From contig JAFTVE010000026.1 of assembly GCA_017465905.1 (NCBI GenBank), forward strand, positions 1 through 64,000: a stretch of DNA of 64,000 bases, given 5' to 3'. Source of the stretch: Bacteroidaceae bacterium (GTDB taxonomy: Bacteria; Bacteroidota; Bacteroidia; Bacteroidales; Bacteroidaceae). Shown here in pieces: positions 52,273-54,978 of the stretch. Below the pieces are notes generated by a model that was given only the letters and a program-made list of their open reading frames with translations, was not told where the DNA came from and ran no database searches. A program made the position numbers and the translations under genes. Position 1 is the first letter of the stretch, and each line of letters begins with the position of its first letter.

Positions 52273-54978
52273 TTAAAAACTTGCAAGCGAAACATACCAC
52301 TCCGTCAGCTCTGTCTTCGGGTAGTAGTGGCGGAGTATTTCTTTGTAGTTGTATCCCTGGGCGCCCATTACGGCAGCGCCTATCTGGCATAGCCCTACGC
52401 CATGTCCCCAGCCTGAGCCGTGGAGGATGAATAAGGGCCTCTCCCCATCCCTCTCCCAAGGAGAGGGGGACTCAGACATCGCGGCACTGCTCTCGGTGGA
52501 CTCTGCAACTCCCTCTCCTTGGGAGAGGGTTGGGGTGAGGCTTTCTACCTTTTCCACCTCGAAGGCGCTGCTATAGAGATGACTCTCCGAGAGCGTGCGC
52601 CGTATCTCCAGCTCCTTGCCGATGATTCGGGTGGCTTTGGTGCCGACGATTTGTAGACGTACAATACGTCCCGAGGGACCGCGCTCAATGGGGATGAGGT
52701 CAACGATGTCGCCATAGTCGAATCCTCCGCGACGGCGTACGAGTTCGCTCAGTTCGGCTTGGGTATACTTCACGGTCCAGCGATAGAAGTCTGTCGACTG
52801 GTCGTAGTGGTTGAGTACTTCCGAAAGCACTTTCTTGTCGTTGGTGTTGCAGAAGGGGTCGTCCACAACGCTGAGGTAGGGATGGGGCGTATCGTCCCAA
52901 CAGCTCTCATACAGTTCGCTCCTACCACCGCAGCACTTGCTGAACCGGGCATCACAGACTGCTCCCTCGTAGCTGAGCACGATACCGCGCGTAGCTCGGA
53001 TGGCCTCAAGAACCTGTGGCGTAACCTTACGGCTTACACCTTGATAGCGTTGGCAATGGTCATCGGCACATACGTCGAAGTGGGCATGCGCTTCACGGTC
53101 GTACCAACGGATAGCCTCCCCCTTACCCCTCCCAAGGAGGGGTGATTCAGACATCGCGGAGGTAATATGGAGAATAACATTTTCGATGTTGTCAATAACC
53201 TCTTCATTCGTGAAACGCAATGTTCGATATCCTGCTTCTGCTAATAATTTGTCTCGAATTTTGTCTGCTTCTTTTTGCTTTGGGTTGTTGTGATAACTTC
53301 CATCTATTTCGATGATAATATTTAGTGGCAAACAAATGAAATCTACTATGAAATCTCCGATGATATGTTGCCTTCTAAATCGCACCCCCAACTTCTTCGC
53401 ACGCAATCTCCCCCAAAGGCGTTTTTCAGCTTCTGTAGGATATCGCTTTTGATTCATTGCATATTCCTTCAATAATACATATATGTCAGGGTGTGCCGTT
53501 TTGTATTTTTCTATGCTAGGAAGTGGCTTTGGATGAGTGTCAGCGATGTCTGCATCACCCCTCCTTGGGAGGGGCAGGGGGGAGGCCCCTATCTGTGCCA
53601 ACAGCCAACTGCGGGAGATGATGGCATGTGCCTTGAGAAGTTCGATGGAAGAGGTACCGCTCATCTCTGAGGCGATGACGCTGGTGAGATAGTCTTCAAT
53701 GGCGATGCGGTTGATGGCATGTAGCTCGCCGTCGATGATGCGTAGGATGAGTGACCCCTGGAAGGTCTGTGTCTCCTGTTGCTGCCAATGAAACTCCTTG
53801 CCGATGGTGACGCTGTGGAGGCTGAAGGTGCTAGTGTCGCCCCCCTCAATAGCGAAGCCCTTGGCTTGTCCAGGAACTCTCTTTCGGGGGGAGCCTGCAA
53901 ACATCACGGTGTCTCCCACGTTGTATGTCGTGCCATTCCTTGTCAGTACGATGGTGTCCTTGCCTGTAGCAGTGTCTCTGCTTATTGTAGCAGTGTAGGT
54001 AATAGATTCTTTTTTATCGGTATCCGAATTACCCCTACCAAGGAGGGGCAGGGAGGAGGTCTCAAACCTGATTTCCTTCCCTTGCATGATGCCCACATCA
54101 ATGGTGGGCTCGGTGCGTACGCCTACCTCGCATAATATGTCGAGTGCTTGGGATATGCTGAGACGCTCGTAGTCTTCGGCTCGTGGGGTCACCAGGAGTC
54201 CACACATGTCCAGTGCGCCTGGACTGATGAGGTATTTGCTCTCTCCCTCAGCGGTGTAGCAGCGGGGGCGGTGTGCTCTGCGTGGGATGACGATGAGGTT
54301 GACCTGCTCGCCTTGACGGAAGGCTACCACGTTGATGCACGGCTCGTATTCTCCTTCGGGGATAGGCAGTTGATTGTATAGTTGACCGAAGGTGCCGGTA
54401 CCTTCTGCGTTGCGGATAAGATAAGCCTGATAGCCGAATGGGGCTATTGCTTGTAGATGGCCCATGTCGGTGATGCTCTTGGCATACTCTACTAAGGGGA
54501 TTCCTGTACCTATGCCGGCCTGCAGATGTAGATGGTCGGGAGCGGATGCGCCGCACTTGGGGCCGTTATAGAATACGATGTACTCCTCAGGCAAGGCCTT
54601 GACAGCTTGTATGAGTGAGTCGTATGCTTCGATGATGTTCTGTCGGCGGTGTGTGGTGGATGCTATCGTGTAGTGGCCTCGCAGGATGGGGAATGGGTTT
54701 ACCAACCACTCGAAATTCTCGTTCAAGGCAAGGCATTGCTGCTCTTCCGGACGGTTGGCGTGGCAGAGGAAGCAGGGGCGTGCGGCTATGCTTGTCTTGT
54801 CGATGCTTGCACCGGTAGAGACCATCCGTGCCGGGTTGCACTGTACCCGGAGTGCAGTGGGTAGCTTTGCCGAGTGCAGCTCACGGCTCCATACAGCGTC
54901 AAGTGCCTCATTGTTGTCATGGGCTAAAGGCCATTCACGCAGTTGTGCCTCAAAGAATGTTTCTAAGCTGTCGGTCAT
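52273..54978 (-). CDS. DUF4922 (HIT-like phosphorylase) - SpoIID/LytB fusion interrupted in frame by a DUF559 endonuclease element
   Basis: 901 residues. Residues 1-~305: DUF4922, with [16 protein letters not shown] and the HIT-type HxHxQ motif [10 protein letters not shown], akin to GDP-hexose phosphorylases. Residues ~320-460: first half of a SpoIID/LytB domain ([48 protein letters not shown]). Residues ~465-622: an insertion made of two inverted repeat-encoded arms flanking a full DUF559 domain ([20 protein letters not shown]…[20 protein letters not shown]). From ~623 SpoIID resumes ([25 protein letters not shown]…[16 protein letters not shown]…[16 protein letters not shown]). A second, nuclease-free repeat is translated at ~813-848 and a solo copy at ~305-318. 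Whether the interrupted SpoIID domain still works is unknown; no frameshift or stop is present. Confidence 0.85.
   Translation of the reverse strand: [901 protein letters not shown]
52436..52541. repeat. ~106-bp inverted repeat (nuclease-free) in frame in the SpoIID part
   Basis: Left arm 52436-52471 (GGCCTCTCCCC…CCCAAGGAGAGGGGGA) and right arm 52510-52541 (TCCCTCTCCTTGGGAGAGGG…GAGGC) flank ~38 bases that include ACTCAGACATCGCGG, shared with the 53114 repeat. It encodes …[11 protein letters not shown]…[12 protein letters not shown]…. Confidence 0.85.
53114..53587. mobile_element. DUF559 nuclease flanked by ~47-bp inverted repeats, inserted in frame in the SpoIID domain
   Basis: Right-hand arm 53114-53160 and left-hand arm 53540-53587 are inverted copies: about 43 of 47 positions agree, sharing CCCCTCCCAAGGAGGGGTGA and CAGACATCGC. 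Between them (53168-53519, minus strand) lies a DUF559 (Vsr-like) domain with [50 protein letters not shown]…LRFTNEEV, including the expected D…EID catalytic pattern. The element has no stop codon in the host frame, so it is read through. An internal Met ([14 protein letters not shown]) could start an independent nuclease. Confidence 0.75.
54027..54065. repeat. solo copy of the DUF559-associated repeat, in frame
   Basis: The minus strand reads CCTCCTCCCTGCCCCTCCTT then GGTAGGGGTAATTCGGAT, one arm of the repeat without an inverted partner. It encodes [12 protein letters not shown] in the DUF4922-SpoIID linker. Confidence 0.6.

Follow-up and report, generated by a model that had tools for sequence, protein, structure and literature searches.

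How does a nuclease come to lie in the middle of an unrelated protein with the reading frame open from end to end? The question is raised by a gene in the first 64,000 nucleotides of contig JAFTVE010000026.1 of assembly GCA_017465905.1 (the stretch analysed here, hereafter 'the window'), from a Bacteroidaceae bacterium whose draft genome comprises 54 contigs and is ~80% complete. The gene encodes a DUF4922-SpoIID protein, and its SpoIID part is interrupted in frame by a full-length element in which two C-rich palindromes, inverted with respect to each other, enclose a DUF559 (Vsr-like) nuclease. A sequence-only reading of the window had interpreted this arrangement as a nuclease-encoding mobile element that keeps the host frame open and has shorter derivatives nearby. 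Such an interpretation fits the anatomy of the locus, the association between palindromes and nuclease, the many hosts and the varying states of the same site among relatives. We consider it probable that this is a mobile element with a layout like that of REPINs and RAYTs and a nuclease of the PD-(D/E)XK type, which remains part of the translated host protein and is not spliced out.

The interruption is evident from the 901-residue protein, on which Pfam places DUF4922 at residues 8-155 and DUF559 at residues 504-608 (E 6e-30), with SpoIID split into two stretches around the latter; the NCBIfam model SpoIID_LytB is split likewise, and the in-frame insertion first proposed from the letters therefore stands. 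Each of the element's inverted arms is 47 nt long and comprises, in gene orientation, an outer C-rich part, the palindrome CCCCTCC-CAA-GGAGGGG and a subterminal motif of approximately GATGCAGACATCGC (Table 1). The arms are complementary at 43/47 positions and their inverted-repeat score of 37 exceeds all 189 control placements (99th percentile 16, maximum 22.5), in keeping with the 47-bp repeats originally noticed; one arm is open in 5/6 reading frames. The solved structure closest to the nuclease is 3hrl, an 'endonuclease domain-containing protein' (E 2e-15) that represents a stand-alone DUF559 of the same family, and the 'Mobile intron protein' 3r3p, which we take to be the Vsr-like I-Bth0305I, is a weak and non-significant match (E 0.084).

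Table 1. Positions in the window of the host gene, the nuclease element and related palindromes.
Feature	Position (nt)	Strand	Remarks
Host gene, DUF4922-SpoIID protein	52273..54978	-	901 aa, single open frame, interrupted in frame
Element bounded by arms	53114..53586	-	473 nt; ends approximate; between ...SRSWLLAQI and I-R-WYDRE of SpoIID
DUF559 (PF04480) nuclease domain	53155..53469	-	conserved D, E, D
5' arm (gene orientation)	53540..53586		outer arm, palindrome CCCCTCCCAAGGAGGGG and subterminal GATGCAGACATCGC
3' arm	53114..53160		inverted copy of 5' arm, 43/47
Short derivative, host gene	52437..52541		two inverted palindrome arms, 40 nt, 85%, 25 nt spacing; in frame; nuclease-free
Single decayed palindrome copy, host gene	54014..54063		encodes SSLPLLGRG
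F1-type palindrome pair, in frame	17548..17622		inside 1410-aa BcrAD_BadFG/DUF2229 frame (16754-20983 +)
Related palindrome pair, in frame	7143..7214		inside 569-aa response-regulator/PglZ frame (6212-7918 -)

The arrangement recurs around DUF559 genes elsewhere. Flanks were surveyed for the 182 of 185 distinct nuclease DNAs that had 250 nt on each side, and a C-rich palindrome core lay within that distance on both flanks of 128, on one flank of 43 and on neither flank of 11, as against 2, 35 and 509 respectively of 546 control placements. The link between repeat and nuclease predicted for other genomes is thus strongly present. Cores on both sides accompany 55/95 copies internal to a host gene, 48/57 that stand alone, 8/8 at the C-terminus and 17/22 at the N-terminus of a host. 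Beyond Bacteroidota, 18 loci hand-picked from among 41 plasmid records (Deinococcota, Cyanobacteriota and Pseudomonadota; 3 phage records were left out) had cores on both flanks in 10 cases, on one in 4 and on none in 4, with both flanks positive in 1/72 controls, and included inverted arms matching at 55/56, 53/56 and 40/40 positions. Across three Deinococcus species the DUF559 gene occupies three different positions of the same hpa gene cluster. Palindrome-flanked stand-alone copies within gene clusters (L269, L270 and L273 on Deinococcus plasmids, L264 from Sphingomonas, and L263) were found at three places in hpa, in the sufB/sufC gap and in the paaD/paaZ gap.

Within a single genus, the palindromes can be followed by family. 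Two of them, F1 (the palindrome of the window) and F2, were searched for across 19 genomes whose relatedness was left uncorrected. F1 has 13 matches in the window's genome, two of them flanking DUF559, 10, 18 and 23 matches in the three other genomes with an F1-flanked DUF559, and 0-9 in the remaining 15; F2, which flanks DUF559 in genomes G001, G008 and G003, has 18, 12 and 6 matches there, 23 in G017, 3 in G006, 1 in G010 and none in 13 others. A reversed pattern gave 0 matches in either search. With exceptions, then, each family is commonest where the nuclease bears the matching flank. It might be countered that the palindromes spread alone or by means of another enzyme, such as a RAYT or other transposase, with DUF559 a mere passenger between them; palindromes do outnumber nucleases in the window's genome, and G017 has palindromes but no detected DUF559. 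We find this explanation unlikely, given that the association spans several phyla, that the active-site residues are conserved throughout and that Y1_Tnp (PF01797), the sole transposase searched for, has no match in 12/19 of the genus genomes, seven of which hold 9-23 copies of F1 or F2. On that last ground RAYT-driven REPs were rejected; G000 has one weak PF01797 match (E 1e-5), on a different contig.

The nuclease domain is also widespread. Matches to PF04480 number 24 over 14 of the 19 genus genomes, 12 of them in frames >400 aa (of which L014 and L022, weak matches in different proteins, were excluded from our tables); a match is present in 70/201 genomes at family level and in 170/296 at phylum level, where at least 42 among the matches listed have frames ≥350 aa. 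In a search of named genomes, for which the best 80 of 561 relatives were used, 48/80 loci fell within long frames (>100 residues before the nuclease and >60 after). Internal copies, defined by an open frame running through the host, make up 64 of the 148 rows in our tables and 33/40 in a set picked for long frames. Long open frames guided the choice of the first 20 regions and of 40 more (from those 42, the window's own and that of G338 being omitted), another 20 being mostly short frames, and row counts in tables and tree include the duplicates L092=G005, L093=G007 and L119=G096.

Some 20 different enzymes of Bacteroidota, mostly of the housekeeping kind, carry DUF559 internally and in frame: SpoIID-DUF4922, RecG, ValRS, MetRS, MetH, PurL, MiaB, UvrA, MazG, an ABC-F ATPase, GH31, a DegT aminotransferase, NAD epimerases, HsdR, HsdM, methylmalonyl-CoA mutase, an M23 peptidase, and helicases of UvrD-type, Dna2-like and RecD-like affinity. 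Outside the phylum, the domain lies inside an Eco57I-type methylase on a plasmid of the cyanobacterium Pseudanabaena. Hosts were identified by sequence clustering and by Pfam on 21 proteins, one per host type, with MiaB, ABC-F, Dna2-like and RecD-like being names read from domains and UvrA identified in a separate comparison; among the hosts, the two tRNA synthetases are related, as are the helicases. Terminal fusions, named by eye, involve Gmk, LeuB, LeuC, IspF, IspG, a phosphoglycerate mutase-like enzyme and others at the N- or C-terminus, and up to 10 DUF559 matches occur in one genome. Copies are present in single-contig genomes (G310, G313, G250 and G442 among them), and an assembly artefact was rejected on that ground. 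In two metagenome-assembled genomes recorded as Proteobacteria (L159, Limnohabitans; L164, Nitrotoga), RecG and MetH with DUF559 group with those of Flavobacteria, and contamination is the likely cause.

The same site was also compared between relatives. Among the 16 genus genomes in which the SpoIID site could be read, five have the nuclease element (G000, G005, G007, G009 and G018), four a solo C-rich palindrome (G001, G002, G008 and G017), four other, AT-rich repeats (G004, G006, G010 and G014) and three nothing clear (G003, G013 and G015). The solo palindrome of G002 has the same outer ends as the nuclease element of its relatives, those of G001 and G008 match in type the flanks of the stand-alone DUF559 in the same genomes, and G089, from a different genus, has DUF559 at this very site with a nuclease from a separate branch of the tree. 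At the RecG site of the Flavobacterium-like genus of G291, 30/30 read sites are empty (KLWKK-N-x-IPPHV), these being the 30 best matches, with the three filled genomes lying outside that set; RecG frames of filled length (844-869 aa) occur in 3/61 genomes of that genus. Where nine filled RecG copies were compared, the host junctions lie within a few codons of one spot. Against 1gm5, the RecG insert falls between residues 514 and 519; that of UvrA likewise lies between aligned host blocks, and in ValRS 140 residues are inserted at the 206/207 boundary of the Thermus thermophilus enzyme.

These site states bear directly on the suggestion that the nuclease has been recruited as a working domain of its host, a stable functional fusion that would be plausible for RecG, UvrA, HsdR and the RecD-like proteins, several hosts being enzymes that act on DNA. 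The sequence-only reading had named a domain at one site across a broad phylogeny, as in a stable fusion, as evidence against itself, and on this point the outcome is mixed: the same site is retained across species in RecG, MetH and the genus clade of SpoIID, and their nucleases mostly form clades, so that old inherited insertions exist; the nuclease is moreover under purifying selection. Yet sites in close relatives are empty or hold a solo palindrome or another repeat and the hosts number about 20, so a stable fusion explains the pattern poorly; the same domain inhabits ValRS, MetRS, MetH, PurL, the mutase, the aminotransferase and GH31, in which a nuclease has no evident role, and stand-alone copies share the palindromic flanks. 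As a general answer it was rejected on these three counts (empty or solo sites, unsuited hosts and shared flanks), and we judge it improbable.

What, then, of the nuclease itself? D...E-x-D is the motif of PD-(D/E)XK-type enzymes, and all three residues are kept in 148/148 rows (60 stand-alone, 88 host-associated). For the 9/16 pairs that were computable the ratio of nonsynonymous to synonymous substitution rates (dN/dS) is 0.06-0.27 in the nuclease and 0.02-0.14 in the host of the same pairs, with dS saturated in 6/16; the nuclease is under purifying selection. The 45 codons preceding the core hold no ATG in 30/64 internal rows versus 3/59 stand-alone ones; judging from the sequence, the internal copies concerned could apparently be expressed only within the host protein, barring another start codon. 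In the nuclease tree, whose internal support is moderate, nucleases of the same host mostly cluster (RecG, MetH and the SpoIID genus clade), from which it follows that insertions persist; ValRS and PurL copies are intermixed, those of DegT, SpoIID, MiaB and the epimerases appear in separate places, and for both SpoIID (G089) and DegT (L154) the same host is occupied by nucleases of separate branches. Inheritance and repeated invasion have probably both occurred.

A further possibility is that the element is removed after transcription or translation (as a cryptic intein or intron, by RNase III-type excision or through ribosomal bypass), leaving a normal host product. In the predicted fold of its RNA (-162 kcal/mol) the two arms are paired, and the element so resembles the intervening sequences of 23S RNA, which fold with paired arms. 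An open frame would be superfluous in a segment destined for removal, yet it is seen in the window and in 63 other rows, a class that is itself defined by the open frame. Furthermore, the intein splicing (Hint) domain has no Pfam match in 21 host proteins at thresholds of E 1e-3, 1e-10 and 1e-8, and group I and II introns have no Rfam match up to E 1 in positions 51000-56000 of the window. Intein and intron were rejected on the lack of Hint domain and intron RNA in these scans and on the frame being open through the element; removal of any kind strikes us as very improbable.

The proposed mobile element shares features with several known systems and differs from each in others. Rickettsia palindromic elements (RPE) and other coding palindromes in Wolbachia and M. 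jannaschii lie in frame within unrelated housekeeping genes (excerpts of PMC10969869 and PMC2996958), and palindromic DNA inserted in frame into unrelated genes is, by description, the feature in common; no moving enzyme is named in those excerpts, whereas the element of the window carries a conserved nuclease together with its own palindromes. In REPINs and REPtrons, inverted palindrome pairs form the unit, singlets are remnants and the enzyme gene lies beside its own palindrome family (excerpt of PMC3116915), and some REPs are located inside genes (excerpt of PMC3733652). Pairs, singlets and an enzyme gene flanked by matching palindromes recur here. Unlike the Y1 HUH tyrosine transposase of those systems, however, the enzyme is a DUF559 nuclease, and the copy bearing it can itself sit in frame inside host proteins; the GTAG/CGTC tag of REPs was not seen by eye at the palindrome ends of F1 and F2 copies, and RAYTs are described as single-copy in the excerpts consulted whereas DUF559 can be multi-copy. 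Homing endonucleases within inteins and introns resemble it in that their nuclease gene occupies one set position within conserved genes and is present or absent among relatives, and differ in the splicing element, which was not found here. In the open-licence literature, from which PMC3943268 was also consulted, no title or abstract opening linked DUF559 with palindromes, inverted repeats or in-frame insertion.

By analogy with REPINs and RAYTs, the nuclease-bearing copy would be the master and the palindromes its derivatives, with solo palindromes and short pairs as non-autonomous or deletion products that probably need the nuclease in trans. Insertion would target tolerant stretches of host genes, plausibly surface loops of the protein, as well as intergenic DNA. 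The nuclease may cut the palindrome, the tip of its hairpin or the empty site, and repair may then copy the element into place; selection after insertion could account for the keeping of the frame. With palindromes and nuclease left open in the host frame, the host protein would include the nuclease as an additional domain. Copies may survive within genes because C-rich palindromes are mostly free of stop codons and the insert is tolerated.

Several observations weigh against this account. Neither a target-site duplication at the SpoIID and RecG junctions examined nor a target consensus was found. A palindrome core is missing from one or both sides of 40/95 internal copies, and the inverted-repeat score reaches 16 or more in only 33/80 named loci (control 99th percentile 14.5, n=240). 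Gene-breaking or antisense copies would have been counted as stand-alone under the definition of 'internal'. The copy numbers of F1 and F2, besides being uncorrected for relatedness, include the 23 F2 palindromes of G017, where DUF559 was not found (the genome is 88% complete), and nine F1 copies in G009, whose own nuclease has another flank type. Since the nucleases of any one host mostly fall into a single clade, many copies are inherited and not newly moved. Transfer is strongly indicated in one case, DegT of G003 and G008, where the nuclease DNA is identical and the host gene has a dS of 0.46, but a longer tract of 94-100% identity, from ~500 nt before to ~280 nt after the nuclease domain, surrounds it, so ordinary recombination is possible; gene conversion with co-conversion is also compatible with the tract. 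Other pairs have a nuclease whose similarity roughly equals that of its flanks, slightly exceeds it or, in G072/G106, falls below it.

The shorter derivatives proposed for the window were recovered as three in-frame pairs and a single copy (Table 1). The pair site inside the host gene at 52437-52541 holds the pair in 5/13 readable genomes (12 of the genus plus G089), a remnant in 1/13 and nothing in 7/13. Over 444 kb, the window's genome yielded 17 C-rich palindromes, nine of them inside long frames, against 0 after a triplet shuffle (n=1). Other repeats are also to be seen. The element's palindromes, at 53113-53145 and 53555-53587, resemble the Rfam Whalefall-1 RNA (RF01762) at a sub-cut-off 23 of 37 bits, and that RNA family may itself contain palindromes of this sort. 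The in-frame repeats at the SpoIID site of L026 (G014), L030 (G004), L032 (G010) and L033 (G006) form a second family, which is AT-rich, and hairpin-rich in-frame inserts within the palindromes or linker of the SpoIID gene in L034 (G018), L027 (G002) and L029 (G009) are nested repeats of a third family. Elsewhere in the window, an AT-rich inverted repeat at 51638-51720 lies in frame within the mazG linker, where a Prevotella MazG (L101) has a DUF559 element, and a 43-nt inverted repeat (49294-49336 and 49828-49870, 491 nt apart, 84%) surrounds a GTACT palindrome array (49608-49695), with no open reading frame >80 aa between its copies.

Homing nucleases are thought to require introns or inteins for residence in conserved genes. 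The nuclease described here, with its cognate palindromes, occupies ~20 enzymes with neither and, if the present reading is true, one caution follows for annotation: what is recorded as a 'DUF559 fusion' may be an insertion and not a functional fusion. We tentatively suggest, as a possibility short of an even chance, that such copies belong to a pan-bacterial class of homing elements nested in proteins without splicing, which would have palindromic ends of their own, invade conserved and even essential genes, persist there permanently as an added domain of the host enzyme, be expressed in many copies only within it, and scatter protein-remodelling coding palindromes through the genome. Coding palindromes have been recognised since the Rickettsia studies, with no mover named alongside them in the excerpts consulted; were this suggestion true, the nuclease element would be their missing active partner. 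It would also provide a testable source of in-frame protein insertions, and may account for the low-complexity inserts of 'PLPLGEG/PSxxGE' type in bacterial proteins.

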